Below are positions 1 through 50,600 of a stretch of 64,000 nt of DNA, piece by piece. Made by a program: the position numbers and the translations under genes. Where the stretch lies: the NCBI GenBank assembly GCA_017622925.1, contig JAGAQC010000001.1, positions 1 to 64,000 on the forward strand. Direction: 5' to 3'. Position 1 is the stretch's first letter. Each line of letters opens with the position of its first letter. The notes under the pieces are model-generated. The model was not told the origin of the DNA. It ran no database searches and was given only the letters and a program-made list of their open reading frames with translations. Source of the DNA: Ruminococcus sp. (GTDB lineage Bacteria; Bacillota; Clostridia; Oscillospirales; Ruminococcaceae).

Positions 1-196
1 CTCTCTTGCAGGGCGTTCCCTCTTTTCAAACAGTCATGCTGACTGTTTGAAAATTCACCCTTTGCGGAGCGCTTAAACGCTATGCAGGGCTTCGCCCCGC
101 ACCCCACCAGAGGCGCTGCCTCTGGACTCCGCCAAAGGGACGCCGTCCCTTTGGAATCCCAATGTTAGTTCGCTTAAATTGTTACTGAACAGGTCT
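1..196 (-). repeat. Family A multi-hairpin repeat, copy A1 (cut by window start)
   Basis: Read on the minus strand this copy runs through the same series of palindromes as copies A2-A5: AAAGGGA/TCCCTTT, CAGAGGC/GCCTCTG, a GC-rich stem of the GCGGGGC/GCCCTGC type, AGCG/CGCT, and a CAAACAGTC/GACTGTTTG stem. The distal GGGAACGCCCT hairpin is cut by the window edge. Its inner end decays into CAGTAACAATTTAAG, a diverged form of the terminal repeat seen in A3 and A4. It stops right at the 3' end of the radical SAM gene. Confidence 0.85.
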
Positions 197-2095: not shown

Positions 2096-2791
2096 ATGTT
2101 TTATTCAAATATAACCGGACTGCCTGTTTATTCCACGCTTGAAGTCAGCATACGGCGTGAAACGGCAGTTTGCGTAACAGGTCACCGTGAAAAGCTCATT
2201 GCGCCCTACAGGAACGACCCCGATATGCTGGGAATAACCCGTACCGCAGTAAAGCTGATGCTTGAACGGTATATCGACATAGTAATGGATAAGGGCTATA
2301 CTACGCTCATTTCGGGACTTGCCGAGGGGACTGATCTGTGGGCAGCCGATCACGCTATCGCGCGTAAAAGATTTGCGCCCGAGTGTAAATTGATAGGGAT
2401 AATGCCGTATTTAAAGCATTCAAACGGCTTTAGCGCGGAGAATACGGAGCTTCTTAAACGTGTGGAGCGTCATGCCGATCTGCTTATCACTACATGCGAT
2501 AACCGAAATATGGTCTACGGGAAAACAGCAGGCTACAACGCAGACCCGCACGTTTACCGTAACAGAAATTTTTTTATGGTTGATAATTCTGCGGCGGTTA
2601 TTGCTTTCCACAGCGAAACGTCGTTGCATTCGGGAACAGGGCAGACGGTAAGATACGCCGAACGCCGCGGTAAACCGATATTCAGCTTCGGGATAGACGA
2701 TGTTTATAACGTCATTGACAATGTCGGAACTGACAAAGCTGCGATATTCGAGGCGTTGAAAAGCATTAAACTCAGCGTTCCGAAGCCCTGA
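2096..2791 (+). CDS. SLOG family protein (DUF1273 / YpsA-like)
   Basis: A 231-residue Rossmann-like protein. The N-terminal VCVTGHRE and the later SGLAEGTDLWAA motif match the SLOG superfamily (YpsA / DUF1273), whose members are thought to bind nucleotides or nucleotide-derived ligands. A later segment, SGTGQTVRYAERRGKPIF, fits the conserved second half. Biochemical role is unknown for this family in general. GGGGAG lies 6 nt before the ATG. It has its own promoter and is followed by a 700-nt repeat-rich gap, so it is probably monocistronic. Confidence 0.8.
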   Translation: MFYSNITGLPVYSTLEVSIRRETAVCVTGHREKLIAPYRNDPDMLGITRTAVKLMLERYIDIVMDKGYTTLISGLAEGTDLWAADHAIARKRFAPECKLIGIMPYLKHSNGFSAENTELLKRVERHADLLITTCDNRNMVYGKTAGYNADPHVYRNRNFFMVDNSAAVIAFHSETSLHSGTGQTVRYAERRGKPIFSFGIDDVYNVIDNVGTDKAAIFEALKSIKLSVPKP

Positions 2792-2872
2792 ATTATATTA
2801 TAGCACAATTTCAGAATTTTGCAAGTGTTTTTTATAACTTAACACGGGAATCAATTTTTAAAGTTTTACAGA

Positions 2873-3089
2873 GAACTTATGCAGGGGGACTCTGTCCCCC
2901 TGCACCCCCTGCCAAAGGGGTGACCCCTTTGGAATCTCTGTTGTCGTGAATTGGACTGTGGCAATCCCCAAATCAAGCACGATACTGTTAGTCTCCATGA
3001 TTACCACAGACCAATTCACGATAATAAACACCAAGAGTTACCGCTTTAACAGAAAGTAAAAGGAAACAGAATCCGCTGTATAAGTTGAC
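2873..3089 (-). repeat. Family B palindromic repeat, copy B1
   Basis: On the minus strand it reads ACTCTTGGTG, then a long stem beginning CGTGAATTGG and ending CCAATTCACG, then ACAGAGATTCC, the AAAGGGG/CCCCTTT hairpin and a GGGGGAC/GTCCCCC hairpin. The outer ends (AGTCAACTTATAC and GCATAAGTTCTC) resemble the terminal inverted repeats of other copies. It abuts copy A2 in the opposite orientation. Confidence 0.85.
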
Positions 3090-3112
3090 TGTAAGACTTA
3101 AAATTGATTTAC

Positions 3113-3319
3113 GTCATAACTTAAGTGAACTAACATCGGGATTCCAAAGGGACGGTGTCCCTTTGGCGGAGTCCAGAGGCAGCGCCTCTGGCAGGGTGTG
3201 GGACAGAGTCCCACATAGCGTTTAAGCGCTCCGCAAAGGGTGAATTTCCAAACAGTCCGTCGGACTGTTTGGAAAGAGGGAACGCCCTGCAAGAGAGGGC
3301 GTTCCCTTAAGTTTATGAC
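3113..3319 (+). repeat. Family A multi-hairpin repeat, copy A2
   Basis: Six consecutive palindromes can be read: AAAGGGA/TCCCTTT, CAGAGGC/GCCTCTG, GTGGGAC/GTCCCAC, AGCG/CGCT, CCAAACAGTCC/GGACTGTTTGG and AGGGAACGCCCT/AGGGCGTTCCCT. The ends form an inverted repeat: GTCATAACTTAAG on the left and CTTAAGTTTATGAC on the right, differing by one base insertion. It occupies the gap between the SLOG gene and the LCP-like gene together with B1. Confidence 0.88.
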
Positions 3320-3361
3320 ATTGGTCGCCCATTAGTTTTTACGTTTTGTTTAACGACAGTG

Positions 3362-3402
3362 TTCAACATTTCTTAACATTGCGCTATTGTTGAAATGTTG
3401 AA
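3362..3402. promoter_or_regulatory. 11-bp perfect inverted repeat upstream of the LCP-like gene
   Basis: TTCAACATTTC at 3362-3372 and GAAATGTTGAA at 3392-3402 form a perfect inverted repeat with a 19-nt spacer in AT-rich DNA, 130 nt before the LCP-like start codon. It could be an operator or a hairpin; no promoter was placed with confidence. The rest of 3320-3532 shows nothing further that I can name. Confidence 0.35.
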
Positions 3403-3532
3403 AACTCTGTTGATAAACTATTCTGCGTTATATTTTATTAACATTTACAGTTGGATAAATATTTTTATTCACAGTGAGTGAATATTCCGTGCAAAAAAAT
3501 ATACCGACCGTTATTGAAGGGAGAATTTTATC

Positions 3533-4438
3533 ATGGCAAAGAAGAAAAAGAAATCAGGAAGTATTGCAGTACCGTATCTTTTGACGATATTTATAGGCAT
3601 TCTTGTTATAGGCGGCGGCACGTTCCTGCTTCTCCGTCATTTGGGGATACTGGGCGGCAGCGATGAACTGCCCGAACCTCCGAAAAGACAGGTGTCTACC
3701 GTAACATATGCGGATAACCACACCGTACTGTTTATTCTTGACGAGCCTGATAAAAAAACTTCCTCCACATTTATGCTTATGAGGTCTGTTCCAAAGGATA
3801 AGAAGGTCGTGTTTATCGGAATACCGTCAAATACGATCGCGCTTGTAGGCGATGTACAGCAGAGTATATCCTCGGCTTACGAATCGGGCGGAGCTTCCTC
3901 GGCGGTCGAGTTTACCCAAACGGTGTTTGGCGTGACCGTGGACAGATATATGCGGCTGGATTCGGAGGCTCTTATAAAGGTATGCGATATACTCGGCGGC
4001 GTTACGTACCCTATTTCCGAGGACATCGCGGGCTTTAACGGCGACGGTACAGAACAGTATCTCAATTCGGAGCAGGTGGAGAAGCTTATCACTTATTCGC
4101 TTTACGGCGACGGCGAGATAGAGCGAGCTTACGTAGTCGGCTCGGTATTCTCCTCGATGCTCAATCAGGCAAGCGGCGTGAGAATTTCCGACAACCTCGA
4201 TACAAGCTTCAATACGCTTGTAAATATGGTCGATACAAACATCACAGCCGTAGACTATAAAAAGCGTAAGGCAGCCATAAAAAATATGCTGAGCAGGGGT
4301 TCAACGGTCGGCACGTTCCTTATAATGGGCGGCGAAAAGGCTTATGAGGACTTTATTCCCGATCAGGGCTTTATAGACGAGTTTAAAGAGAAGTATTACA
4401 GCTACGACGAGAGCAGCGGCGAGGAAGACGAAGAATAA
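3533..4438 (+). CDS. LCP-like (LytR-CpsA-Psr fold) membrane protein, probably catalytically altered
   Basis: 301 residues: a very basic N-terminus (KKKKKS), one membrane segment at about 11-35, then an extracellular domain. The order of motifs follows LCP proteins, which attach glycopolymers to peptidoglycan: FMLMRSVPKDKKVVFIGIP, then SISSAYESGG, VFGVTVDRYMRLD, and ILGGVTYPI. But the usual SIPRDT motif reads GIPSNT, lacking the pyrophosphate-binding arginine, and the later arginine-rich motif is also degenerate. It may be a non-catalytic relative. The acidic tail ends one base before the tatD start codon, so the two are translationally coupled. Shine-Dalgarno GAAGGGAG precedes the ATG. Confidence 0.7.
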   Translation: MAKKKKKSGSIAVPYLLTIFIGILVIGGGTFLLLRHLGILGGSDELPEPPKRQVSTVTYADNHTVLFILDEPDKKTSSTFMLMRSVPKDKKVVFIGIPSNTIALVGDVQQSISSAYESGGASSAVEFTQTVFGVTVDRYMRLDSEALIKVCDILGGVTYPISEDIAGFNGDGTEQYLNSEQVEKLITYSLYGDGEIERAYVVGSVFSSMLNQASGVRISDNLDTSFNTLVNMVDTNITAVDYKKRKAAIKNMLSRGSTVGTFLIMGGEKAYEDFIPDQGFIDEFKEKYYSYDESSGEEDEE

Positions 4439-5206
4439 ATGGTAAATATATTTGACACTCATGCCCACTACGCCGACCATGCCTTTGACGGGGACAGAGC
4501 GGAGGTTCTCGAAAGACTGCCCGAAATGGGGGTCGCATACGTTATGCTTGCCTCCTCGTCGGTCGAGGATACGGCGGAGAACGCTTCACTTGCCGAGAAA
4601 TACGGGTATATCTACGCCGCCTCGGGAGTTCACCCCGAAAGCGTTGACGCAAATCCCGAAAACTACCTTGACATCGTGAGGGCGGCGGCTCTCGGTTCGG
4701 AAAAGGTAAAAGCGATAGGAGAGATCGGACTTGATTATCACTATGAGGGTTATTGCCGTGAAAAGCAGATAAAGCTTTTTGAGGAACAGCTTGCGCTTGC
4801 CGATGAGCTTGACCTGCCTGTGATAGTCCACAGCCGCGACGCCTGCGAGGACACCCTTAACATACTTAAAAAGTATAAGCCTAAGGGCGTGGTCCATTGT
4901 TTCAGCGGTTCGGCGGAAACGGCAAAGGAAATAATTAAGCTCGGCATGTACATAGGCTTTACGGGCGTTCTGACGTTTAAAAATGCGAAAAAGGCTTTGA
5001 GGGCGTTGGCGGAAGTTCCTATAGACAAGCTGCTTCTGGAAACCGATTGTCCGTATATGGCTCCCGTACCGTTTCGGGGCAAACGCTGCGACAGCTCCAT
5101 GATAGCCTATACTGCGGCGGCTGCGGCAGAGGTAAAGGGCATGGACGTACAGGAGCTTATTGATATTACCTGCGAAAACGGAAAAAGATTTTACGGAATC
5201 AAATAG
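4439..5206 (+). CDS. tatD: TatD family metal-dependent hydrolase (DNase-like)
   Basis: 255 residues with the complete TatD metal-site motifs: FDTHAHYAD at the N-terminus, GEIGLDYH near 95, PVIVHSRDA near 127, HCFSG near 155 and ETDCPYM near 205. Members are divalent-metal hydrolases with 3'-5' exonuclease activity on DNA or RNA. The ATG follows the stop codon of the LCP-like gene directly, with no spacer. The radical SAM partner family often found beside tatD is encoded at 198-809 on the other strand. Copy A3 of the repeat begins 16 nt after the stop codon. Confidence 0.93.
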   Translation: MVNIFDTHAHYADHAFDGDRAEVLERLPEMGVAYVMLASSSVEDTAENASLAEKYGYIYAASGVHPESVDANPENYLDIVRAAALGSEKVKAIGEIGLDYHYEGYCREKQIKLFEEQLALADELDLPVIVHSRDACEDTLNILKKYKPKGVVHCFSGSAETAKEIIKLGMYIGFTGVLTFKNAKKALRALAEVPIDKLLLETDCPYMAPVPFRGKRCDSSMIAYTAAAAAEVKGMDVQELIDITCENGKRFYGIK

Positions 5207-5222
5207 CATGCAATTATTTTAA

Positions 5223-5486
5223 CACTACCCACAACTTATGCAAACTAACATTGGGATTCCAAAGGGACGGTGTCCCTTTGGCGGAGTCCAGAGGCAGAGC
5301 CTCTGGCAGGGTGTGGGACAGAGTCCCACAAAAGCGTTAAGCGCTCCGCAAAGGGTGAATTTCAAAACAGTCCAATGGACTGTTTTGAAAGAGGGAACGC
5401 CCTGCAAGAGAGGGCGTTCCCTTATTAAGAACACGGTACGACGTGCCTTTAATAAAGGAAGAAAATCGCTAAAGTTGTAGACAGTG
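5223..5486 (+). mobile_element. Family A MITE-like element, copy A3, with 10-bp direct repeats
   Basis: The element starts CACTACCCACAACTT and ends AAGTTGTAGACAGTG, an imperfect terminal inverted repeat. ATTATTTTAA stands directly outside it on both sides (5213-5222 and 5487-5496), as expected of a target-site duplication. Inside are the six family A palindromes; the fifth reads CAAAACAGTCC/GGACTGTTTTG, so both arms have changed relative to A2. It fills the whole gap between tatD and the PP2C gene and carries no credible gene. Confidence 0.88.
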
Positions 5487-5509
5487 ATTATTTTAAGGGT
5501 GGAACTGCG

Positions 5510-6262
5510 ATGTACTATTGCTGCGGAATTACGGAAAAAGGCGTTATGCCTCATAATGAAGACGCTCTGCTTATCGGACGGCACGTTATGACCGCAGGCA
5601 TGATAGAGCAGCGTTTGGAGCCGCCGTTTATAATGGCTGTTTCGGACGGCGTATCGGGGGAAAATTCAGGCGAGATCGCTTCGGTGATGTGTCTTGAAAG
5701 CGTAAGGCAGCTCGAAGAACTGCGGAAAAATCAGCTTCATGCAGGTCTTATGGAGATCCACGAAAAATTGGCGGAATACAGCCGCAACGCCCCCGAAAGT
5801 CGGAATATGCAGACAACTCTCTGCGGAATTGCCGTTGACGATGACGAAAGGGTCTGCGCATTCAATGTGGGGGATTCCCGATTGTACCGTTTCCGTGAGG
5901 GTAAGCTCAGGCAGCTTTCCAGAGACCAGTCCCTTGTGCAGCTTTTGTACGAGGAGGGTTCTATTACCCATGAGGAGCGTAAGACCCATGTTCACAGGAA
6001 TATTATTTTCCCTGCATTCGGCAACATCAAGGACACTCCGAAAATAGACATCGAGGAGATAGAGGGCGGATTCGAGTACGGCGATGTGCTTCTTATATGT
6101 TCGGACGGCTTGTCGGATTATCTTTCGACCCTCGACATACAGGAGGTAATGGAGCTTCCCAAAAGTCTTACAGACCGTCTTGAAATGCTTGTAAAGACAG
6201 CTCTTGAACACGGCTGCGGCGACAATATTTCCGTAGCGGCAGCGTTGTTTATTGATAAATAA
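5510..6262 (+). CDS. PP2C-type serine/threonine phosphatase
   Basis: 250 residues with PPM/PP2C metal-binding motifs in order: NEDALLI at about 17, VSDGVSGENSG at about 47, NVGDSRLYR near 120, CSDGLSDY near 200 and GCGDNISVAA near 238. These place Mn/Mg-binding aspartates where expected, so it should be active on phosphoserine/threonine proteins. It is separate from the stp-prkC pair at 59.7-62.9 kb and so is the second PP2C of the window. AAGGGTGG, partly formed by the direct repeat that flanks A3, serves as Shine-Dalgarno. The gene is bracketed by copies A3 and A4. Confidence 0.9.
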   Translation: MYYCCGITEKGVMPHNEDALLIGRHVMTAGMIEQRLEPPFIMAVSDGVSGENSGEIASVMCLESVRQLEELRKNQLHAGLMEIHEKLAEYSRNAPESRNMQTTLCGIAVDDDERVCAFNVGDSRLYRFREGKLRQLSRDQSLVQLLYEEGSITHEERKTHVHRNIIFPAFGNIKDTPKIDIEEIEGGFEYGDVLLICSDGLSDYLSTLDIQEVMELPKSLTDRLEMLVKTALEHGCGDNISVAAALFIDK

Positions 6263-6300
6263 AAAGCAGATACGGCAAAATGCGTCGAATCTGCTTTTTT
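6261..6300 (+). terminator. Intrinsic terminator after the PP2C gene
   Basis: AAAGCAGAT and ATCTGCTTT form a stem around a 15-nt loop that is followed by a T run, directly after the stop codon. Confidence 0.85.
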
Positions 6301-6312
6301 GTATTATTTTAA

Positions 6313-6566
6313 CATTATCCACAACTTAAGCGGTTCTCTGTTATTAAAGCGTTCTAATATCGGGATTCCAAAGGGACGGTGTCCCTTTGGCGGAGTCCAG
6401 AGGCAGCGCCTCTGGTGGGGTGCGGGGCAAAGCCCTGCATAGCGTTTAAGCGCTCCGCAAAGGGTGAATTTCAAAACAGTCCTACGGACTGTTTTGAAAG
6501 AGGGAACGCCCTGCAAGAGAGGGCGTTCCCTTAATAGGAACATAATTCCTTAAGTTGTAAATAGTA
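6313..6566 (+). mobile_element. Family A MITE-like element, copy A4, with 10-bp direct repeats
   Basis: Left end CATTATCCACAACTTAAG and right end TTAAGTTGTAAATAGTA form the terminal inverted repeat. The same ATTATTTTAA that flanks A3 stands at 6303-6312 and 6567-6576. The third internal stem is GCGGGGC/GCCCTGC instead of GTGGGAC/GTCCCAC in A2 and A3, changed on both arms. The right direct repeat contains the folC stop codon. It separates the convergent PP2C and folC genes. Confidence 0.88.
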
Positions 6567-6567
6567 A

Positions 6568-7830
6568 TTATTTTAATGATTTTAATGTTTCGGAAAATTC
6601 TTTATACATATAAAGAGAACCCACAGCTATCAGCGGAAGTCCTTGTGTTTCGGCGTACCGAACGCTTTTTCTCACACCCTCCGCCACCGAATCGCAGGGA
6701 ACAGCGTCAATGCCGTATGCGGTAAAGACCTCTGCAAGAGCTTTGCTGTCCAAAGCCCTCGGATTGTCGGGAGCTGCCGTAAAGGCGGTATCCGTGAATT
6801 TTCCCAGTAATTCGGGATAAAGTCCGTATTCCTTATCAGCCATTACGCCTATGAGCAGTACGACCTTTCCGCTGAAATACGTTTCAATGCTTTCAGCCGC
6901 ACGGATAATTCCGTCGGGATTGTGCGCGCCGTCAAAAATTATAAGCGGTTTTTCGGAAACTATCTCGAACCTGCCTTGATTGCGAGCCTTGGAAATTCCC
7001 GAGATGACCGCGCTGTCGGGAATTACGATACCCTCATTACACAGAAGTTCAACTGCTGTCAGGACGTTGGCAAGATTAAAAGCCTGATACGTCCCGAGCA
7101 TGTGGGATTCAAGTGTTCCGAAGCGTTTATGCCGAAAGACGGTCTTATTAATATCACGGCTGACGACTTCGAGAGCCGAATGGTCGGCAAGCGTGAGAGG
7201 GGAATTTTTTTCTGCGGCGGCTGCGGAGATAACTTCATAAGCTTCGCTGTTGTTACCGCCGTAGAGAACGGGACGCCCCTGTTTGATGATTCCTGCCTTG
7301 TGCCGCGCTATTTCTTTTATTGTGCCGCCGAGAAAAGCGGAGTGGTCAACGGCGATATTTGTAATGACCGAAAGCAGCGGCTTTTCGACCACATTAGTGG
7401 AATCAGTGTCGCCGCCCATGCCGCACTCGATAAGCGCAATATCGCATTTTTTTCGGCGGAAAAGCTCGTATGCGGCGGCGGTCAGGACTTCAAATTCAGT
7501 GGGCTTGTCGGCCATATCCTCGCAGATCGGGACAAGCTCCGTAAAAAGCGTGTCAAGCTCTGCAATGGAAATTTGTCTGCCGTTTATGCGAAAGCTGTCG
7601 GTAACGTCCGTAAGAGCAGGGGAGGAGAAGCTTCCCACGGTGAAGCCGGCTTCAGCGAGAACGGCGGACATCATCACGCCGAAAGAACCCTTGCCGTTTG
7701 TGCCTGCAATGTGTATCACAGGGAGGGCATTCTGCGGATCGCCGAGCCTTTTGCAAAGTTCGGAAATGCGTTCAAGCCCTAATTTGCTGCCTCTTTCGGC
7801 GGCTTTTTTTAAATATTTCAGGGAATCCAT
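6568..7830 (-). CDS. folC: Bifunctional folylpolyglutamate synthase / dihydrofolate synthase
   Basis: 420-residue Mur-ligase-family enzyme adding glutamate to (dihydro)folate or to dihydropteroate. The ATP-binding loop is HIAGTNGKGS at about 39-48, followed by GSFSSPALTD, ALIECGMGGDTDSTN and NIAVDHSAFLG. The C-terminal domain has FDGAHNPDG. It starts 3 nt after the folT stop codon, so both genes share a transcript controlled by the tetrahydrofolate riboswitch upstream. Its stop codon lies inside the 10-bp repeat bordering element A4. Confidence 0.94.
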   Translation of the reverse strand: MDSLKYLKKAAERGSKLGLERISELCKRLGDPQNALPVIHIAGTNGKGSFGVMMSAVLAEAGFTVGSFSSPALTDVTDSFRINGRQISIAELDTLFTELVPICEDMADKPTEFEVLTAAAYELFRRKKCDIALIECGMGGDTDSTNVVEKPLLSVITNIAVDHSAFLGGTIKEIARHKAGIIKQGRPVLYGGNNSEAYEVISAAAAEKNSPLTLADHSALEVVSRDINKTVFRHKRFGTLESHMLGTYQAFNLANVLTAVELLCNEGIVIPDSAVISGISKARNQGRFEIVSEKPLIIFDGAHNPDGIIRAAESIETYFSGKVVLLIGVMADKEYGLYPELLGKFTDTAFTAAPDNPRALDSKALAEVFTAYGIDAVPCDSVAEGVRKSVRYAETQGLPLIAVGSLYMYKEFSETLKSLK

Positions 7831-7833
7831 ATT

Positions 7834-8403
7834 CTATTTCCTTTTGCATATCTTTTCAAGCTGCGAGGTAAACGCCCTGTTTTTCAGAAGCAGGGAAATT
7901 ATCATAAATTCCATAAGACCAATGCCGATATACGTAGGAATACGGTATACAAGCAAAGAAAACGGCATATTGGGCGGCAGAAAATGCAGTCCTGCCGATT
8001 TAATTAAGAGCGAGCCGATAAGGTGAGCAAGTCCTACAGAAAAAGCAATATTAAGCGTCTGATTTTTTTTGAATAATTTCATTGAAACAAGTCCCGAGAT
8101 GATGCCGATACTCATAGCTCCGAGGGCAATAACGGGATTTATGGAATATCCTTTGAGGATACTTCCGATAATATCTGCGCCAAGTCCGACCGCGCCGCCA
8201 ACGAACGGTCCGAAGAAGATACCCGCCATAATTACAGGCAGATTTTCAAAGCTGATACGTATAGCGTCGGTAATGTTAAAGGCAAGGAATTTGCCGAAAA
8301 CAATACTCAGGGCAACGAGAAGTCCCGAAATTATCATTACTCTTACGTTGCCGAAAAGCCGTAAATTGGCTGCCGCCGTGTTGTTTGAATTGTTTGTGAT
8401 CAT
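7834..8403 (-). CDS. folT: Folate-family ECF transporter substrate-binding (S) component
   Basis: 189-residue integral membrane protein with about six hydrophobic segments. The pattern ALSIVFGKFLAF...IRISFENLPVIMAGIFFGPFVGGAVGLGADIIG is typical of FolT, the folate-specificity subunit of energy-coupling factor transporters; the ATPases and T component would be encoded elsewhere. The folate assignment is supported twice by context: a THF riboswitch upstream and folC immediately downstream. The ATG is 7 nt from AAAGGAGG, and that Shine-Dalgarno is part of the terminator stem. The protein ends in a basic cytoplasmic tail. Confidence 0.92.
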   Translation of the reverse strand: MITNNSNNTAAANLRLFGNVRVMIISGLLVALSIVFGKFLAFNITDAIRISFENLPVIMAGIFFGPFVGGAVGLGADIIGSILKGYSINPVIALGAMSIGIISGLVSMKLFKKNQTLNIAFSVGLAHLIGSLLIKSAGLHFLPPNMPFSLLVYRIPTYIGIGLMEFMIISLLLKNRAFTSQLEKICKRK

Positions 8404-8437: not shown

Positions 8438-8486
8438 ATTTAGGGCATGAAACGGCTGTTTCTGCCTTTTAAATTCTGCATTTCTT

Positions 8487-8583
8487 AAAGCGGGATGCAA
8501 AATGTGAACCGCAGACAAACGTCTTTCGTCCCGCCGACAACTCCCCGTTCGACAGGCACTTTACGAACACATTTTTACTCTTT
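8487..8583 (-). ncRNA. Tetrahydrofolate (THF / folT-type) riboswitch aptamer
   Basis: On the minus strand the leader shows the landmarks of the THF aptamer in order: AAAGAGTAAAA at the 5' side, GTTCGTAAAGTG, then GGACGAAAGACG, and the 3' segment GCGGTTCACATTTTGCATCC closing with CGCTTT. AAAG at the start pairs with CTTT at the end as helix P1. The match was recognised by eye against the known consensus, not by a covariance search. Position between a consensus promoter and the attenuator of folT-folC fits the known gene context of this class. Confidence 0.87.
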
Positions 8584-8610
8584 AGTCGGACAAAACGTCC
8601 GCCAAGATTC

Positions 8611-13718: not shown

Positions 13719-15230
13719 ATGAGAAAATATTTAATTCTTTTAACGGCGGCAATGTTTACAGCTTGTTCAGCAGTTTCCTGCGGCAGAGAGACCGCCGAAG
13801 AAAAAACAGAGGTCGTTTCCGAGACCTCTGCTGTAGAAACTTCGGAGACTTCCGAAGAAACTCAAGAGCCGACCGAACCGTTTTCCGAATTGCAGGAGTG
13901 CCACAAAACCATAGAAAACGAGGAAAAGCCCGAGGTTATCCGTATTTCCTTTGAGGGAAAATGCTCGGACAACATAAAAAAACACGCTAAGGTGACAGAC
14001 CTGTATAATATCGACGTCCTGCACAGCGGCGTTGTGGGACTTATAGGAGTTCCTATCGAGCTTGAATATGACGAGGAAGTTTCCGAACCTCGCTTGACTT
14101 TTACATACGATACGTCGGAATTGAGGGGCGTTCCCGAGAAAAATCTTGTAATGCTCCACTATTCCGAGGAGGACGCATTTTACAATACTGTTGAGGATTT
14201 TTCGCTGAATACGGACGACTGCACCGTATCAGCCCCGATAAAAGAGGAGGGCGTTTATCTTCTTGCGGACGCTTATATGTGGTACGGCTGCTGGGGAATG
14301 GACGTTTCCGAATACGAGTACGAGCGTAATCCGCAGGATTTCCCAACGGACTGGGAAAGGGAGCGTGACACGGGAGATATAACGGAGCTTGTTGACAAGG
14401 AATGGGCAATGGAGAACGCCCCGAGTTTCCGTGTATCTACGGCGGAGGAGCTTGCTTCGGCGGTATGGTACGTCAACGGTATATGCGGACTTGATGTGAC
14501 TGTGACCTTGGAATCGGACATCGACCTCAGCGGATACGACTGGAAGCCGATGGGCTGGAGCAGCGGAAACTACTATTTTTCGGGAACTGTAGACGGTCAG
14601 GGTCATACTGTAAAGGGAATGACTATCGACGAGGACTATGTTCAGACGGGATTTATCGGCTACGGCATGGGTATCACGGTAAAAGATATAACTTTTGAGG
14701 ACGCAAGCGTTTCCGCAACTCACTGTACGGGTATTGTCGGCGGCGAGATATACAGTTCCGATCTTTGGGAGAACGTTCATGTTTCGGGAACGGTACGGGG
14801 CGGCTCTGACGATTACGGCGCAATTATCGGCAGAGAAGCAGGAACGACTTTCAAAGACTGTTCTGCGGACGTTACTGTAGACGGTCAGCCGTTTCAATAC
14901 TTTTCGTACAGGCAGAAGATTATAGACGAAACGGAAGTTGTTGAAACGTTCACTCTTACGCTGAACGATGACTATACAGTTACCCGAGACGAACACGACG
15001 GATTCAGCAACCTCTGCTGGCAGGTCGAGCAGAACGGGGTCGAAGCTCTGCAAAGAGGTGCGGAGGACGAGCTTACGCTGAATACTCATGAAATTTTTGA
15101 AAAAGCGCTGACCTTGAGCAACGATCCGGGTACGTATAAAATTTACCTGACGGCTTACATAAACGGTACATATATACGCGTAAGCAATATTATCGAATAT
15201 GAAATAGACGATACTTATAATACAGACTAA
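13719..15230 (+). CDS. Secreted lipoprotein with repetitive beta domain
   Basis: 503 residues. The signal peptide ends in a lipobox around CSAVSC at 16-21, so the mature protein should be anchored by a lipidated cysteine. A Glu/Ser/Thr-rich linker follows (about 25-55). A middle region has STAEELASAVWYVNG and TLESDIDLSGYDWKPMG, then GTVDGQGHTVKGMTI and repeated glycine-rich strands (GFIGYGMGITVKDITF, GGEIYS, GAIIGREAG), which look like the GLUG-type or parallel beta-helix repeats of surface adhesins. No enzymatic motif was seen. AAGGAGTG precedes the ATG. Role unknown. Confidence 0.7.
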   Translation: MRKYLILLTAAMFTACSAVSCGRETAEEKTEVVSETSAVETSETSEETQEPTEPFSELQECHKTIENEEKPEVIRISFEGKCSDNIKKHAKVTDLYNIDVLHSGVVGLIGVPIELEYDEEVSEPRLTFTYDTSELRGVPEKNLVMLHYSEEDAFYNTVEDFSLNTDDCTVSAPIKEEGVYLLADAYMWYGCWGMDVSEYEYERNPQDFPTDWERERDTGDITELVDKEWAMENAPSFRVSTAEELASAVWYVNGICGLDVTVTLESDIDLSGYDWKPMGWSSGNYYFSGTVDGQGHTVKGMTIDEDYVQTGFIGYGMGITVKDITFEDASVSATHCTGIVGGEIYSSDLWENVHVSGTVRGGSDDYGAIIGREAGTTFKDCSADVTVDGQPFQYFSYRQKIIDETEVVETFTLTLNDDYTVTRDEHDGFSNLCWQVEQNGVEALQRGAEDELTLNTHEIFEKALTLSNDPGTYKIYLTAYINGTYIRVSNIIEYEIDDTYNTD

Positions 15231-15287
15231 TTAAAAGTTTAAAATACAGACCTCCGATGAGGTTTGAAAAATAAGGAGCGAATACCA

Positions 15288-17056: not shown

Positions 17057-17159
17057 AGAGGCAAACCGAGCGGACTGAAAAATGTCATTGACATGAAAAT
17101 CAATTTTAGGCTCTACAGGCAGCTTATGCGGCAGATACTGTTACACTGTATTCTCTGAC

Positions 17160-17292
17160 AAGGAGAGATTTTTTGAACCCATGTCGTAACATTCTGCTCC
17201 ATTTGGGGCAGAATGTTACGAAAACAGAGATTCCAAAGGGGTCACCCCTTTGGCAGGGGGTGCAGGGGGACAGAGTCCCTCTGCTTAAGTTC
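17160..17292 (+). repeat. Family B palindromic repeat, copy B3
   Basis: The variable stem here is CGTAACATTCTGC/GCAGAATGTTACG, quite different from the CGTGAATTGG stem of most copies, but it is followed by the same ACAGAGATTCC, AAAGGGG/CCCCTTT and CAGGGGGAC blocks. The right end has CTTAAGTT; the left end is decayed. The bases 17057-17159 show nothing I can name. Confidence 0.82.
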
Positions 17293-17340
17293 CCTGTTAC
17301 AGCTTTAAAAAATGATTTTCGTGAAAATCGCTCGACCCTC

Positions 17341-17369
17341 TTGACAAATCGTCATAAAAAAGGTATAAT
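17341..17369 (+). promoter_or_regulatory. Consensus sigma-A promoter of the zinc-ribbon gene
   Basis: TTGACA at 17341-17346 and TATAAT at 17364-17369, both perfect, spacer 17 nt. Start of transcription is expected near 17376. Confidence 0.93.
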
Positions 17370-17387
17370 ATATATACTGAATAAATG

Positions 17388-17438
17388 GGAGTATGGTGAC
17401 GGAACTGCGGAAACGTCCGAAGTCCGTTACCAAACTCC
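17388..17438 (+). promoter_or_regulatory. Leader hairpin of the zinc-ribbon gene
   Basis: GGAGT and TGGTGACGGAACT on the left pair with AGTCCGTTACCA and ACTCC on the right around a GC-rich loop. The hairpin begins within about a dozen bases of the expected transcript start and ends before AAGGAGCG. It may stabilise the mRNA 5' end or be regulatory. Confidence 0.5.
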
Positions 17439-17463
17439 AAACTGAATAAAAGGAGCGATAGGA

Positions 17464-17898
17464 ATGGGTATTCTCGATAAGATCGGCGATGTCAGCAAGG
17501 GCGTTTCCGATAAAACCAAGAGTATGTCCGAGGCAAGCAACCTCAAAAGAAAGATTCTGTACGAAGAGGAGCGTATCGTTGAGATATTTACCGACATCGG
17601 CAAGAAGTATTACAAGAATCCCAATGAGGATCCCGCTAATCTGAAAGTTCTCTGCGATGACATCGACACTCGCCGCAGACGTATCAAGAAGATGAGATTC
17701 GAGCTTAACGGTATCAGAGGCTATAAGATCTGTCCTAAGTGCGACGCCGAGGTCAACGAGCGTTTCCAGTTCTGCGGACGCTGCGGTGCAAGACTTCCCG
17801 AGATGGAGGACGATGATTTTATGTCACTCGAACCCAACGATTACTACACCGAAAGCAGCAATCAGTTCTTCAACGCTGATTCAAACAAAAACTACTGA
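17464..17898 (+). CDS. Coiled-coil protein with C-terminal zinc ribbon
   Basis: 144 residues. Residues 1-90 are charged and helical, likely a coiled coil (EEERIVEIFTDIGKKYY, DIDTRRRRIKKMRFEL). A double-CxxC zinc ribbon follows at about 96-115: CPKCDAEVNERFQFCGRCG. The tail is acidic. No signal peptide or membrane segment. Such zinc-ribbon proteins are frequent in Firmicutes and their roles are mostly unknown. It has a perfect promoter and a Shine-Dalgarno AAGGAGCG, so strong expression is likely. Element C3 starts 4 nt after the stop codon and separates it from the terminator. Confidence 0.8.
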   Translation: MGILDKIGDVSKGVSDKTKSMSEASNLKRKILYEEERIVEIFTDIGKKYYKNPNEDPANLKVLCDDIDTRRRRIKKMRFELNGIRGYKICPKCDAEVNERFQFCGRCGARLPEMEDDDFMSLEPNDYYTESSNQFFNADSNKNY

Positions 17899-17901
17899 TG
17901 A

Positions 17902-18060
17902 ATACTCGCCTCCATTGCAAAATATCCAGTAATGCCGACACAAAATCCGTCTGTCTGCGTCATCTTCCTCACCATACAGCAAGTATGCTTTCGTCATCTT
18001 CCTTGACATACGAATTTTCTGTTCGACATCCTTTGGACATTTTGCAATGGAGGCGAGTAT
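17902..18060 (-). mobile_element. Family C long-palindrome element, copy C3
   Basis: Arms ATACTCGCCTCCATTGCAAA and TTTGCAATGGAGGCGAGTAT are perfect inverted repeats at both ends and pairing continues beyond. The reverse strand of the centre has the family core GAAAGCATACTTGCTGTATG followed by GTGAGGAAGATGACG. The arms are unrelated to those of C1 and C2. It lies between the zinc-ribbon stop codon and that gene's terminator. Confidence 0.86.
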
Positions 18061-18062
18061 AT

Positions 18063-19427: not shown

Positions 19428-19444
19428 TATACGCTTTCTGCAAC

Positions 19445-19694
19445 TTCAGCAAACTAATATCGGGATTCCAAAGGGACGGTGTCCCTTTGGCGGAGTCCAG
19501 AGGCAGCGCCTCTGGTGGGGTGCGGGGCGAAGCCCTGCATAGCGTTAAGCGCTCCGCAAAGGGTGAATTTCCAAACAGTCCTGCGGACTGTTTGGGAAGA
19601 GGGAACGCCCTGCAAGAGAGGGCGTTCCCTTAGTGCGGACACGGCACGCCGTGTCCCTACAAAGAAAAAAATTAAGTTGTGGACAGTGACTAAT
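19445..19694 (+). repeat. Family A multi-hairpin repeat, copy A5
   Basis: All six family A palindromes are present: third stem GCGGGGC/GCCCTGC, fifth stem CCAAACAGTCC/GGACTGTTTGG with loop TGC. A seventh stem, ACACGGC/GCCGTGT, follows the GGGAACGCCCT hairpin. Ends CGCTTTCTGCAACTT and AAGTTGTGGACAGTG are inverted; flanks ATTAGTATA and ACTAATATC resemble a decayed direct repeat. A one-base deletion in the fourth stem shifts the spurious reverse-strand reading frame seen in other copies. Confidence 0.87.
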
Positions 19695-20146: not shown

Positions 20147-20374
20147 CAGTATCCACAACTTAGAGGGATATTGTTTTTCTGCATTTCTTGTCTGAGAGGT
20201 AACTTTTTGGAGTCTATATCGTAAATTATCCTGCATAAAGCCATAAAAATATGGATTCGGATTTATATAGCAGGCTTTATGCAGGATAATTTACGACAAC
20301 AGAGATTCCAAAGGGGTCACCCCTTTGGCAGGGGGTGTGGGGGACAGCGTCCCCCACTAAAGTTGTAGACAGTG
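20147..20374 (+). repeat. Family B palindromic repeat, copy B4
   Basis: Ends CAGTATCCACAACTTA and CTAAAGTTGTAGACAGTG are inverted repeats close to those of A3. The variable stem is a 23-bp perfect palindrome beginning CGTAAATTATCCTGC, unrelated inside to the stems of other copies but again opening with CGTRA. It is followed by ACAGAGATTCC, AAAGGGG/CCCCTTT and GGGGGAC/GTCCCCC. Outer flanks ATTATATAAT and ATAAAATAAT match at 8 of 10 positions. Confidence 0.88.
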
Positions 20375-44938: not shown

Positions 44939-47356
44939 ATGAAACTAAAAAAATTTACGGCGGCGCTGTCCGCTATGGCTGTTTCGGCAGGTATGCTTTC
45001 GGCTCTGCCCGTGGCGCAGTCCTCTGCGGCTGTTGACGTCAACTACGGCGAGGCTTTGCAGAAGTCGCTTTTCTTCTATGAGGTTCAGCAGGCAGGCGTT
45101 TTGCCCGAGTGGAACTCCGTTTCATGGAGAGCTGATTCCATGGTCAATGAGGACGGAACTCCTACTGACGTTGTGGACGGCGGTTGGTTCGATGCAGGAG
45201 ATCACTTTAAATTTACGCTTACAAATGCCTATAGCGCGTCAATTCTTGCATGGGGATATATGGAATATAAGGACGCTGTAGATAAGGCGGGACTTGGCGA
45301 GGCTTACAAAAACAACCTTAAATGGGGCATAGATTATGTCCTTGCCGCAGACCGCGGAAGCGGAAAAATGGTCGGCACGATAGGCGACTTTACAGGCGGT
45401 TCAACTGACCATAACATCTGGTGCAGCGCCGAGGTCTACCTCAGAAAGCATCACCTTAACAACGACGATTGGGAGCGCCCCTACGATATTATAGAAAATT
45501 CCACCGTTGCAGCTCTTTCCGCAGCCGTTCTTGCGCAGGGCTATATGCTTTTCAAGGATACCGACCCTACAAAGGCTGAGGAATATCTTGAACACGCAAA
45601 GGACCTTTTCGACGGCGCGGATAAGATACGTGATACAAAGGACGTAGGCGGCATGGCAGGAATGTATAATACGTCAACATGGATAGACGACTGTATGTAT
45701 GCCGCTTGCTGGCTCTATAAGGCAACGGGCGACAAGCAGTACCTTGACAAGATCGAAAAGGATTATATCCCGAACTTCCCCACAGAAAGCCAGTCTACAG
45801 ATTGGAAGTATACATGGGGTCTTGCATGGGACGATACAACGCAGGCTGCGGCTCTCCTCTATGCGCAGATCACGGGCAAGGAAGAATGGATAAACCACAT
45901 CGACAAGCATATCCGCTACTGGATGAACGAGGGCAGCGCAGGCGGACTTAAACCTTTTGAGGGAAAAGTTACCCCCGGCGGTCTTTCGCATCTTACAAAC
46001 TGGGGCTGTCTCCGCCATGCGGCAAATACGGCGTTCCTCGCTAAGCTTGCAAGCGATACCGTATTCAAGGAGGATTCCGCAAAGTCTGAGAAGTACAATA
46101 AATGGGCTGACAGTCAGATGAATTACTGTTTCGGCGATAATGAGGAAAATATCAGCTATGTGCTTGGAATGGGCGAAAAAAATCCGACTGCGATCCACCA
46201 CAGAACGGCTTCGGGTATTCACGACGATCACTGGAACGAGCTTGGTCAGGAATCAGGCGGCGACGAGGGCTGGCAGACAGAATATGCTCATACCCTTTAC
46301 GGCGCGCTTATCGGCGGTCCGGACAGCTCGGGCAGCTATGGAAGCTATAAGGTTTCGGATTATCAGTATACAGAGGTCGCAATTGACTATAATGCAGGAT
46401 ATACGGCTTCTCTCTGCGCTATGATAGACGATTACGGCGGAGAAAAGCTTGCCGACTTCCCTACAAAGGAAGCTCCCAAGTGGGCTGAATGGAAAATGGC
46501 GGCTGTCCTCAACGGGAAGGGCGACAGCTATTCGGAAATAAAGGCGTGGACGATGAATCACACGGCATGGCCTGCGCGAGTATATAAGGACATCAAGTAC
46601 CGCTATTTCTTCGACATTTCGGAGGTTTTGGCAGCAGGACTTTCTGTTGACAACATCTCTCTGGAGGTCAAGTCTCAGCAGTACAAAGAGGGCGATGCCG
46701 GATTTGGAGTCTCCAACGGAATTCACAAGTATGAGGGCGATCCTACGGGAAATACCTACTATGCAGAGATAGCTTTCGAGGACGGCAGAGCGATCATGCC
46801 TACGGGACAGAGCGAACATCGTGACGAGGTTCAGTTCAGACTTTCAATTCCCGACGCTATCGACGGTAAACCTACAAAGGGCGCATGGGATCCCACGAAC
46901 GACTGGTCTTACGAGGGCATTGAGGACTGTGATAATATCAAGTCCACCGATGCGTACAACGGTAACATTACGATGTACGTAAACGACATTCTCGTTTGGG
47001 GAACCGAGCCTGACGGTACTACCGCTGTTGCAGGCGCAGACCTCGGCAGCTCGGGCGGAGAAATTTCCACCCCCACAGAACCTCAGGTAAAGCCTACGAC
47101 CTCGCAGCCCGCTCCGACAACACCCCCGGGCGACTATCTTGCAGGCGACGCTAACTGCGACGGCGTTGTGACTATCGCCGATTCTACGGCTATTCTCCAG
47201 CATCTTGGAAATCAGGATAAGTACGGTCTTTCCGAGCAGGGAGCGATAAACGGCGATGTAAACGGCGAGTCGGGAATCACACCTGACGATGCTCTTGTAA
47301 TTGCCAAAGTTGACGCTAAAATTATAAAACTCGAAGATCTTCCTTTAAAGAAATAA
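44939..47356 (+). CDS. Cellulosomal GH9 endoglucanase with CBM3 and dockerin
   Basis: 805 residues: signal peptide to about residue 31 (ending SSAA), GH9 catalytic domain to about 490, a CBM3c-like module about 510-665, a Pro/Thr linker near 695-720 and a type I dockerin at about 722-800 (GDANCDGVVTIADSTAILQ, then GDVNGESGITPDDALVIAK). Catalytic features of GH9 are visible: GGWFDAGDHFKF with the base aspartates, AIHHRTASG, and YTEVAIDYNAG with the acid glutamate. GH9-CBM3c enzymes are usually processive endoglucanases. GAGGGGG precedes the ATG. It has its own promoter and terminator. Confidence 0.94.
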   Translation: MKLKKFTAALSAMAVSAGMLSALPVAQSSAAVDVNYGEALQKSLFFYEVQQAGVLPEWNSVSWRADSMVNEDGTPTDVVDGGWFDAGDHFKFTLTNAYSASILAWGYMEYKDAVDKAGLGEAYKNNLKWGIDYVLAADRGSGKMVGTIGDFTGGSTDHNIWCSAEVYLRKHHLNNDDWERPYDIIENSTVAALSAAVLAQGYMLFKDTDPTKAEEYLEHAKDLFDGADKIRDTKDVGGMAGMYNTSTWIDDCMYAACWLYKATGDKQYLDKIEKDYIPNFPTESQSTDWKYTWGLAWDDTTQAAALLYAQITGKEEWINHIDKHIRYWMNEGSAGGLKPFEGKVTPGGLSHLTNWGCLRHAANTAFLAKLASDTVFKEDSAKSEKYNKWADSQMNYCFGDNEENISYVLGMGEKNPTAIHHRTASGIHDDHWNELGQESGGDEGWQTEYAHTLYGALIGGPDSSGSYGSYKVSDYQYTEVAIDYNAGYTASLCAMIDDYGGEKLADFPTKEAPKWAEWKMAAVLNGKGDSYSEIKAWTMNHTAWPARVYKDIKYRYFFDISEVLAAGLSVDNISLEVKSQQYKEGDAGFGVSNGIHKYEGDPTGNTYYAEIAFEDGRAIMPTGQSEHRDEVQFRLSIPDAIDGKPTKGAWDPTNDWSYEGIEDCDNIKSTDAYNGNITMYVNDILVWGTEPDGTTAVAGADLGSSGGEISTPTEPQVKPTTSQPAPTTPPGDYLAGDANCDGVVTIADSTAILQHLGNQDKYGLSEQGAINGDVNGESGITPDDALVIAKVDAKIIKLEDLPLKK

Positions 47357-47656: not shown

Positions 47657-50600
47657 ATGCACAAGAAAATTTCTAAGGCAATTGCCGGAAGTCTTATGTC
47701 TATGGCTATGCTCGCTACTGCCGTTACCGGCACGATCGCTCCTCTGAGCGCTTCGGCAGGTCAGGTGCTTGGTGAGACGTCGTTTACAAATAAGGCTCTG
47801 CCTTGGCACACATGTGAAACGTCTCCTGCTAAGCAGGACTTCAGACTTGAAGACGAAGCGTTCCATATTACAGTAAAGGTTCCGGAGGGCGGCGAAAAGT
47901 CCAAGTGGGATCTTCAGTTCCGTCACAGAAATCTTAACTTCAAGGCAGGCCATGAATACGAGGTAAGCTTTAAGGTTAAGGCTAAGAGAAGCGGTATGGA
48001 GCTTTGCTCTAAGATCGGTGATATTTCTGGTAATGATGAATACTTCAGCCTTAAAGACGGTCAGTTCGTCATGGGCATCAGCATGGGCGGTGATTGGGGT
48101 AACGCTGTAAAGCTTACTACCGAATATCAGACATTCTCAGGTACGTTCAAGCCTACAAAGGATCTTGAGGCTGCTGAGTGGACATTCCACTATGCTAAGG
48201 ATTCCAACGGCTATGGCGGCAACGCTCAGGAGGGCGACGAGCTTTGGTTTGACGATATGTCCATCATATGCAAGACCTGCGGTGATGGCGGTGAATGCGA
48301 CGCAGACCCGAACAAGTCATACGGCGCTACAAACCGTGACTACGGCGCAACTTTCACAGACGAGATCGCAGAATATATGACAGTTGACGGAAAGTCCGTA
48401 AACTTTGTTTCTGTAAACCAGATCGGTTACTATCCAAATCTGGCTAAGGTTGCCGTTCTCGGCGATAACCAGGGCGACGTTCTGCCTAACGCTACAAAGA
48501 TTACTCTCAGCGGCACATACGGATTTGACGTATGCGATGCTGCTACGGGTGAGGTCAAATGGTCAGGCACATCTACTGCTCCTCAGAAGGACGGAGATTC
48601 TGCCGACAGCGTTTGCAAGCTCGATTTCTCTGAGTTCAATGTTCCCGGCAGATACTACATCAAGATTCAGGGACAGGATTGGAGATCGTTCGAGTTCAAT
48701 ATCGGCGATAACATCTACTATGATGAGTCTCACAACCTCCTCACAAACGCTATGAACTACTTCTATCAGAACCGTTCAGGTATTGATATTGAAGACGAAT
48801 ACTGTACATCAGGCGGCTCTGACGGCAAGGGTACAGGAATGGGTCACAAGGGCGGTCATAAGACCGATACGGCTTCTATCCAGAAGATTTGGAAGAACGA
48901 GTACGCATCTAAGGAAGAGGCTACTTCTACCTACAAGTCAGGCACACTTACCGCAAACGGCGGTTGGTACGATGCCGGTGACCACGGTAAGTACGTTGTA
49001 AACGGCGGTATTTCTATTTGGACGCTCCAGAATATGTATGAGAGAGCTATTAAGACAGAAGAGGGCAAGGCTAAGTTTGCCGACGGTTCAGGCACAGTTG
49101 TTGTTCCTGAGGCAGGCAACGGAGTTCCCGATGTTCTTGATGAAGCTGCTGTTGAACTTGACTGGATCGCACAGATGAAGGTTACTTCAAGCGATACTGC
49201 ATGGGGCAAGTACGAAGGTCTTTACTATCACAAGCTCCACGACCATAAGTGGACTGGTCTTGCTACCAGACCTTGGGACTATGACAAGCCTACGATGGAT
49301 AACGGTCAGAAGGGTTGGGGAACAACTCGTATCGTAAAGCCTCCGACGTTCGCTGCTACGCTTAACTATGCTGCTTGTGCCGGTCAGGCTGCAAGACTTT
49401 GGCAGGATTATGACGGCACTAAGGCTGAGACATACCTCAAAACAGCTGTTGAGGCATTCAAGGCATATAAAGAGTATTACTATCCTTATGATGATACAAA
49501 GACTACACATCCGACACTGAATTGCGAGTGCCCGAAGGAAGAGATCAGAGAGGATTCTCTGTACGCTCCTATGTGGCAGGCAAAGGGCGGCGGACCTTAC
49601 GGTGATAACAACGTTCTTGACGACGCTTACTGGGCAGCTTGCGAGATCTACCTTTCTGCAAAGGCAATGGGCGACGACGCTACAGCATCAAAGTTCAAGG
49701 CTATCATGGACGAATCCGAGTACGCTTACACATGTAACACAGCTATGGTAGGCGGCGAGAACAAGGACGGCTCGTTCACATCGTTCAACTGGGGTAATAC
49801 TGCTTCCGCAGGTACTCTCTCGCTTGCTCTCCACGAAGATATGCTCGATGCTTCCGAGTTTACAAAGGTTCAGTCAAATATCAAGAAGGCTGCCGACGAC
49901 TATATCGCTCAGGAAGAAAAGCAGGGCTACGGTATTCCTTATAAGGCTCCCGCAGAAGCTTACAACGACCCGAACAACCTCGATCCTTCCGTTATGATCA
50001 AGGGTTACGAGTGGGGTTCAAACTCAATGGTAATCAACAACAGTATCGTTATGGCTTACGCTTACGATATTGACAATGATATTAAGTACATGAACGGCGT
50101 TTCCAAGGCTCTTGACTATCTCTTTGGTACAAACCCGCTTTCATTCTCATTCGTAACAGGCTACGGTACTTATGTTGAGAAGAATCCTCACCACAGATAC
50201 TGGTCTTACGAGCTTGATAAGACTCTGCCTATGGCTCCCGATGGAATCCTTTCCGGCGGTCCTAACGCAGGTCTCCAGGATCCTTATGTACGCGCTCTTG
50301 CTTTCGTTCCCGGTGATCCTGACAACCCGTCGCAGAGATGCTTCGTTGACTCTATCGAAGCATGGTCTACAAACGAGGTAACTATCAACTGGAACGCTCC
50401 TCTTGCTTGGATCGCTTCCTTTATGCAGGACGAGGCAGCGGATGCTTCGGGTACTCCCGGACCTAAGCCCACTGATCCTACAGATCCTTCAACTCCTTCC
50501 GGTGATACTCTCTGGGGCGACGCTAACTGTGACGGTCAGGTAACTATCGCTGACTCTACAGCTATCCTCCAGGCTCTCGGTAATCCCGATAAGTACGGTC

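Follow-up and report, generated by a model that had tools for sequence, protein, structure and literature searches.

MIC231 of Bacillus cereus is a mobile cassette linked to the IS4 family of insertion sequences (ISs). Target duplications are about 10 bp long in the IS4 family and 10–12 bp long in IS231, according to the available part of PMC2266710. IS1272 of staphylococci, which belongs to the IS1182 family, targets stem-loops by their structure (PMC5678879, available text). In DNA template switching, one arm of a palindrome is copied to the other and the spacer can be inverted; in yeast, spacer inversion occurred only with arms longer than 9 bp, as far as the accessible portion of the report goes (PMC8604942). 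RNA hairpins are proposed, in the available text of PMC8794818, to originate and persist through the same process, whose published marks, in the accessible parts of both reports (PMC8604942, PMC8794818), are homogenised arms and inverted spacers. Here we describe family A, a repeat made of stem-loops in a 64,000-nucleotide stretch of Ruminococcus sp. DNA (the window, G000:C11:1-64000). The own genome, G000, is a 2.5-Mb draft of 76 contigs, and many repeat copies sit at contig ends. We consider it probable that family A is a non-autonomous transposable element served by trans-acting transposases, and that the two arms of its hairpins change together mainly through a process acting on DNA.

The proposed arrangement is as follows. 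Terminal inverted repeats would enclose an array of stem-loops of about 175 bp and serve as sites for transposases supplied in trans, in this lineage by an IS4-family element and, in certain other species of the genus, by one of the IS1182 family. Where a hairpin has a short loop, the polymerase would copy one arm onto the other, by template switching or quasi-palindrome correction, which would restore Watson–Crick symmetry on both strands at once and could invert the loop. Exchange among dispersed copies would then shuffle the hairpins as modules, which would explain why stem types are freely combined. Hairpin 5, whose arms are the longest (13–14 bp) and whose loop has 3 nt, would be the one that turns over fastest in this lineage, and its long arms and short loop fit template switching. 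The array itself would mostly be a tolerated passenger.

The window holds five copies of family A. Copy A1 (1–166, minus strand; nhmmer, 186 bits) is cut by the window start. The other four are on the plus strand: A2, with a core of six stem-loops at 3132–3307 (208 bits); A3 (5223–5486, core 5247–5422), complete from terminal repeat to terminal repeat; A4 (6313–6566, core 6356–6531), also complete; and A5 (19432–19688, core 19456–19630), complete with a degenerate left end and a right terminal repeat at 19674–19688. The interval 3113–6566, on which the initial annotation was centred, contains only three of the five. A3 is 264 bp and A4 254 bp long, and neither has a transposase of its own; the sole listed open reading frame (ORF) of at least 100 aa that overlaps the A3 core (5225–5584, minus strand, 119 aa) runs through the hairpins.

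Presence and absence were compared with a relative, G123, whose aligned pieces are 87–97% identical to the own genome. Three of the four complete window copies (A2, A4 and A5) are missing from G123 at the same place, and A3 is present. The site of A4 is empty (alignment joint between 23110 and 23111), as is that of A5 (joint 36070/36065), and 62 other bases stand in place of the stretch 2842–3332, which includes A2 and a family B copy (approximately 2860–3095, minus strand). A further B copy (17111–17312, plus strand) is missing alone (joint 33950/33953), and at the place of a B element with ends of the same kind as those of A (20147–20374, plus strand), G123 has a truncated A element. Elsewhere in this comparison, about 575 bp present in G123 (G123:C23:31508-32083) are not found in the window at 15200–15283, and the aligned pieces are slightly reordered near 17.4–18.1 kb (window 17313–18061).

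A3 lies between two copies of the target duplication ATTATTTTAA (5213–5222 and 5487–5496), and A4 lies between two copies of ATTATTTTAA as well (6303–6312 and 6567–6576); the duplication at A5 is about 9 bp and degenerate. The terminal inverted repeat, CACTGTCYACAACTTAAG, is common to A and B elements, some of which have inserted modules. With up to two mismatches it occurs at 100 sites in G000 and 127 in G123, and its reversed control at none. With up to one mismatch there are 52 and 80 sites, and 1–3 in each of six more of the 125 genus genomes; two genomes have a single reversed-control site each. At 25 of 28 elements bounded by these repeats, the 10-bp flanks match at 8 or more positions (mean 8.8 of 10); among mismatched flanks the share is 1.4%. 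With the flanks of the own copies anchored at the core, duplications are not in excess (of 37 copies, 1 exceeds the 99th percentile and 4 the 95th); this anchoring missed them because the ends lie further out, and anchoring on the terminal repeat resolved the matter.

The repeat is numerous and widespread in the genus. Its last hairpin, with up to three mismatches, occurs 80 times in the own genome and 39 times in G123 (reversed control, 0). The own genome has 41 long matches at 89% identity or more (the search scored 40 candidates), and matches occur in 40 of 60 genomes of the genus, the own one among them. The copy sets used below were selected by similarity to A2: 41 copies from the own genome and 83 relatives' copies, scoring above 90 bits, from 27 other genomes. 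Rows L071 and L072 were left out before the relatives' copies were aligned, and L068b, L074 and L132 before hairpins were scored. Hairpins 1, 2, 3, 5 and 6 fall below the score threshold in 4, 3, 7, 0 and 0 of 80 relatives' copies and in 0, 1, 0, 0 and 0 of the 41 own copies; in some genomes unrelated hairpins substitute for hairpins 2 and 3, as seen in the part shown of the full alignment. In the alignment rows shown, an upstream CAAAGGG, CAAGGGG or CAAGAGG mostly accompanies a variant of the last stem (GAACGCC, GGACGCC, AGACGCC); not all of these pair with each other, and the rule is broken by L070 and a few others. A plasmid search gave no match to the repeat, and a phage search gave only four weak partial matches (27–39% coverage) in unannotated records. 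Literature searches for Ruminococcus palindromes or miniature inverted-repeat transposable elements (MITEs) found nothing relevant, and a search by hairpin letters found unrelated papers only.

ISs with matching ends are present in the genus. One of them, L456, is a 1413-bp insertion sequence in another species, G018, one of the six genomes with few end sites. Both of its ends are CACTATCCACAACTTAA, it is bounded by an exact 10-bp duplication, GATGCTAAAC, and its 445-aa ORF encodes an IS4-family transposase (NCBIfam NF033592, 139 bits against a cut-off of 115). Contig ends of G000 and G123 carry IS ends similar to those of L456 (75–80% over 69–140 bp). With terminal inverted repeats, a target duplication, no transposase and ends in common with an autonomous element, family A has features of a MITE, and we infer that transposases of this kind move it. 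Other candidates in G000 were set aside. The longer of its PF01609 hits is an ISAs1-family gene (311 bits) with flanks that do not match the element ends; the second is a 78-codon fragment, around which ends were sought by letters only. Pairs of ends 2 kb apart (contig C76) and 2.8 kb apart (C23) enclose genes that, by eye, are not transposases. At L268 (G000:C34), an ISAs1-family transposase gene is cut short beside a second transposase-like frame, which we take to be IS256/Mutator-like; this is apparently an element within an element.

Elsewhere in the genus, some species have this core within IS1182-like ends that resemble CAGTTTGTCAAAAAAGTC, and other relatives' copies have further kinds of flank. 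L157 is an IS1182-family element (475 aa; NF033551, 399 bits against a cut-off of 270) with CAGTCTGTCGAAAAAGTC and CAGACTGTCCAAAAACCC at its ends, and an identical 26-base hairpin stands on either side of it. In this one element, the IS1182-family second partner has a stem-loop as its target. The PF05598 domain is found in 15 of 60 genus genomes, G000 not among them. Direct flank repeats exceed the 99th percentile of mismatched flanks at 20 of 81 relatives' copies; in our reading, 13 of these repeats are hairpin-shaped, at a distance of 10–41 bases from the core, another three are looser, and the remaining four arise from other causes. Inverted flank matches exceed their own 99th percentile at 18 of 81 copies, and the outer hairpins of L067 and L085 look inverted, not direct. 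To the eye, the duplicated outer hairpins may be terminators.

The arms of the hairpins do change together between copies. The initial annotation had described copies with the same order of hairpins and different bases, and this is borne out: there are five copies and six hairpins, the third stem is GTGGGAC/GTCCCAC in A2 and A3 and GCGGGGC/GCCCTGC in A1, A4 and A5, the fifth has CC..GG in A2 and A5 and CA..TG in A3 and A4, the loops GTC, AAT, TAC and TGC occur among the copies, and the first stem has AAAGGGA in A as against AAAGGGG in B. The inner part of hairpin 5 of A2, a hypervariable palindrome, is AAACAGTCC GTC GGACTGTTT (3250–3270, plus strand). As RNA, window 3110–3330 folds with z = −8.3 relative to 200 shuffles. 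No named family had been recognised from the letters, and Rfam agrees: at the gathering score the sole match in the window is an unrelated tetrahydrofolate (THF) riboswitch, and in E-value mode six loci gave two chance-level matches only (E 1.5 and 2.9). The riboswitch (86 bits; 8486–8584, minus strand) lies upstream of a 189-aa ORF resembling a membrane protein (7834–8403, minus strand), and a folC-like ORF (6568–7830, minus strand) is also downstream of it, both named by eye. The window has in addition a two-copy direct repeat of 152 nt, 72% identical (47113–47264 and 50485–50636).

How hairpin 5 changes can be seen at four copies at loci shared by a single species pair, found by comparing the own copies with 30 G123 loci. 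A separate listing has 56 matches, several being pieces of a single copy. L045/L191, matched on one flank only, was left out. Hairpin 5 differs at all four loci, with paired arm changes at three and one exact loop inversion. At L017/L187 the apex goes from CGCAG to CTGCG, an exact inversion, with one arm letter changed besides. At L024/L192, two arm changes are paired and the loop is new. At L025/L202 both arms are rewritten, partly as a symmetrical one-base shift, with a new loop and unchanged flanks. A3/L211 has one paired change and a new loop, and its hairpin 3 is replaced in G123 by a module of about 75 bp. Outside hairpin 5, three of the orthologs differ by a few core letters, and the one with the exchanged hairpin 3 is the fourth. 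The module (G123:C23:22052-22126) contains GTGTCC-AGT-GGACAC, the apex type of hairpin 5.

The same turnover is apparent across the copies. Hairpin 5 has 33 alleles in 46 own contexts, where one locus may count twice if stretches are cut, and 25 in 25 G123 contexts; perfect 13-pair palindromes make up 23 of the 33 and 16 of the 25. Diversity in the own genome is 0.42–0.73 per column at the hairpin-5 apex; over the remaining core its mean is 0.056. Loops are near-constant in hairpin 1 of the own copies (38 of 41) and the same in all 41 in hairpin 6, whereas hairpin 5 has 20 loops in 41 copies. Pairwise differences between own copies are two-sided and one-sided in 879 and 215 cases for hairpin 5 and in 899 and 531 for hairpin 3; within other genomes, hairpin 5 has 245 and 40 (such counts of copy pairs, like the counts of cells below, are of non-independent events). 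Ordered pairs of G000 loops are reverse complements in 120 cases and identical in 122, as against 38 reversed and 38 complemented. None of 3000 permutations reaches the observed number of reverse-complement pairs in G000, and P is 0.001 in G123. Closure of the set of distinct loops gives P 0.002 in G123 under one null and, under another, 0.02 in G000 and 0.004 in G123. We read these statistics as support for loop inversion, not as proof of it. Template switching would be the mutational cause of both kinds of change.

The initial annotation had taken the paired changes to imply selection on the folded form. Of this, the pairing is real and strong, as counted on the collected copies, and the step to selection is not supported, since the pairs are almost only Watson–Crick. 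The alignment holds 66 distinct relatives' sequences over hairpins 5 and 6 (25 pairs, 1650 cells); 69 of 80 copies were kept (60–85 bases, no repeats), and L065, L122 and L124, which are not 62 bases long, were left out. Standard pairs fill 98.6% of the 1650 cells, two-sided changes occur in 17 of the 25 pairs (shuffles, 8.5), and covariation scores 0.316, against 0.118 when shuffled and at most 0.143 with slid partners. Selection for RNA would be expected to act through changes via G-U on one strand. The control was 22 THF riboswitches of the genus on an RNAalifold-predicted structure, 8 of 30 loci having been left out as cut by contig ends or longer. The element alignment has 15 cells of G-U and 9 of A-C, which is G-U on the other strand, out of 1650; the variable pairs of the riboswitches have 39 and 3 (Fisher p = 0.006 by cells). 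The G-U share of pairs at variable sites is 1.1% in the element and 8.8% in the riboswitch. Distinct hairpins from 80 relatives' copies have 1084 Watson–Crick pairs, 27 G-U, 17 A-C and 19 others (p = 0.17, G-U against A-C), and those of the own genome 251, 8, 6 and 2. Thus, strand-specific use of G-U as in the riboswitch control is not seen, folding matters at the DNA level as a substrate for mutation, and the covariation found here does not demonstrate selection on RNA.

Several observations weigh against parts of the reading that we prefer. New loop letters are unexplained by template switching and need an added source. No complete IS4-family partner was seen inside G000, and, judged strictly by letters, only 6 of 83 relatives' copies have IS1182-like ends at both flanks. 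Further pair types in the covariation alignment number 32, against 30.9 in shuffles, a value reached by 156 of 500 shuffles, which is no excess; and the G-U to A-C contrast, counted by distinct pair types, is 7:5 against 16:3 and not significant (p = 0.21). One-sided states are not rare, as alleles lacking one pair make up 9 of 33 in the own genome and 9 of 25 in G123, and own hairpins 2 and 6 have one-sided differences only (115 and 80). In the relatives, hairpin 5 leads in variability by a modest margin only, with distinct arms in 39 of 56, hairpin 6 having 35 of 56 and hairpins 1–3 having 28, 29 and 32 of 55, and its loop is nearly constant (GGT or AGT in 73 of 80); the hypervariable apex is for these reasons peculiar to the lineage of G000 and G123. 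Reverse-complement loop pairs in G123 (26, against 24 reversed and 28 complemented) show no excess, and distinct-loop closure in G000 gives P 0.83 under one null. Lastly, among the relatives' copies the upstream gene points toward the element in 60 cases and away in 20, with the downstream gene at 38:36 (80 and 74 cases), a bias unpredicted by evolution of DNA that is blind to strand. The own genome, with 400-base flanks, is symmetrical (9 and 9), and G123 has 9 and 5. The bias is the strongest argument left for an oriented role or for oriented insertion, which could be its source.

That bias, with the strong covariation and the stable fold, is what speaks for a core that is a structured RNA under selection, such as an element of 3′ untranslated regions, carried by a transposon and with compensatory paired changes; the core is also borne by two unrelated types of end, as if it were the useful part. 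We nevertheless think this unlikely. G-U is nearly absent and hardly strand-biased, unlike the riboswitches of the same genus, own copies have no preferred orientation, Rfam has no match, hairpin 5 has had both arms rewritten at fixed loci, and hairpins 2 and 3 are in places swapped for unrelated ones. Ectopic gene conversion among copies, as the only source of the differences and with no mutational process specific to hairpins, is a better candidate, if still a rather unlikely one: hairpin alleles combine freely with third-stem types, and conversion tracts would be invisible, the flanks of hairpin 5 being identical among copies. Yet conversion homogenises, and this is hard to square with 25 alleles in as many G123 contexts and with an apex far more diverse than the rest of the own core; moreover, the palindromes must first arise anew. 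Dispersed intrinsic terminators, which would account for strong hairpins adjoining genes, more often downstream of the left-hand gene, are highly improbable and were rejected: a scan of 2780–6640 found two terminator-like sites, against 4.0 in shuffles, at 2912 in a B copy and at 6620–6637, with none in the A copies.

A dedicated activity, a nuclease or recombinase working at the apex, could also diversify hairpin 5. The contrast of its loops with those of own hairpins 1 and 6 would suit such an activity, as would the recurrence of the apex motif across phyla; we hold it to be very unlikely, because a search, not made in depth, found no candidate protein, arm length alone may explain the hotspot (arms above 9 bp in yeast, in the available text of PMC8604942), and the relatives' loop is constant. 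Only slightly less doubtful, and distinctly unlikely in our judgement, is that hairpin 5 is an actively diversifying palindromic cassette, its arms and loop rewritten by a hairpin-specific activity into nearly copy-specific palindromes, with the consensus AAACAGTCC-RGT-GGACTGTTT a recognised DNA hairpin common to unrelated repeats in several phyla. The genome collection does have at least 119 stretches with the 21-mer AAACAGTCCRGTGGACTGTTT, Treponema, Streptococcus, Massilia, Brucella, Paracoccus, Bifidobacterium, Cyclobacterium and a planctomycete being among the matches listed, and in IMG/VR the 21-mer is present in 10 stretches, as against 0 for four control palindromes. At 136 sites read in genome and viral loci, 26 pass a strict test for the Ruminococcus core, at least 8 more have the core by eye, and most of the rest lie in different contexts. 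A looser form of the apex is present in 3 of 398 genomes of the phylum, own included, and some of the distant matches may be hairpins that arose by chance. In 10 of 16 picked loci, several of them picked for tRNA-like letters, the 21-mer lies about 77–112 bases downstream of a tRNA gene (L328, L337, L297, L303, L351, L293, L287, L332, L340 and L322), surrounded by repeated letters resembling tRNA ends.

To summarize, the reading of family A as a transposon-borne array whose arms are probably kept alike by copying of DNA bears on how covariation is used. Covariation is widely read as evidence that an RNA fold has a function; here strong covariation can be accounted for by a process that copies DNA, and the family is a warning to automated searches for RNAs. 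With dozens of near-identical copies in each genome, two close genomes and a riboswitch contrast from the same genus, it is a natural test bed for bacterial template switching. That two unrelated transposon systems carry one hairpin body, and that one of the systems duplicates its hairpin targets, bears on how small mobile elements are assembled.

Family A resembles bacterial MITEs and MIC231 in being short and non-coding, with IS4-family ends and duplications of about 10 bp. It differs from them in a body that is an array of stem-loops exchanged as modules and that also occurs with IS1182-like ends. Compared with the IS231 ends given in the available text (CAT-------AA--TAA), the AA and TAA positions and the length fit, but the third terminal base is C, not T, which places family A outside that subgroup. 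L157 has a transposase of the family of IS1272 (NF033551) and a stem-loop target; IS1272 replaces its target stem-loop without duplication, whereas here the stem-loop is duplicated, an alternative pathway discussed in the accessible part of PMC5678879. Homogenised arms, concerted changes of several bases and spacer inversion are shared with the template-switch cases of yeast (PMC8604942) and of RNA genes (PMC8794818), as far as the available portions of these reports describe them; unlike those cases, family A consists of many dispersed copies in one bacterial genome. Finally, like the repetitive extragenic palindromes and bacterial interspersed mosaic elements (REP/BIME) in the accessible text of PMC3733652, family A is a set of dispersed extragenic palindromes in high copy, but its elements are longer and have terminal repeats and target duplications.

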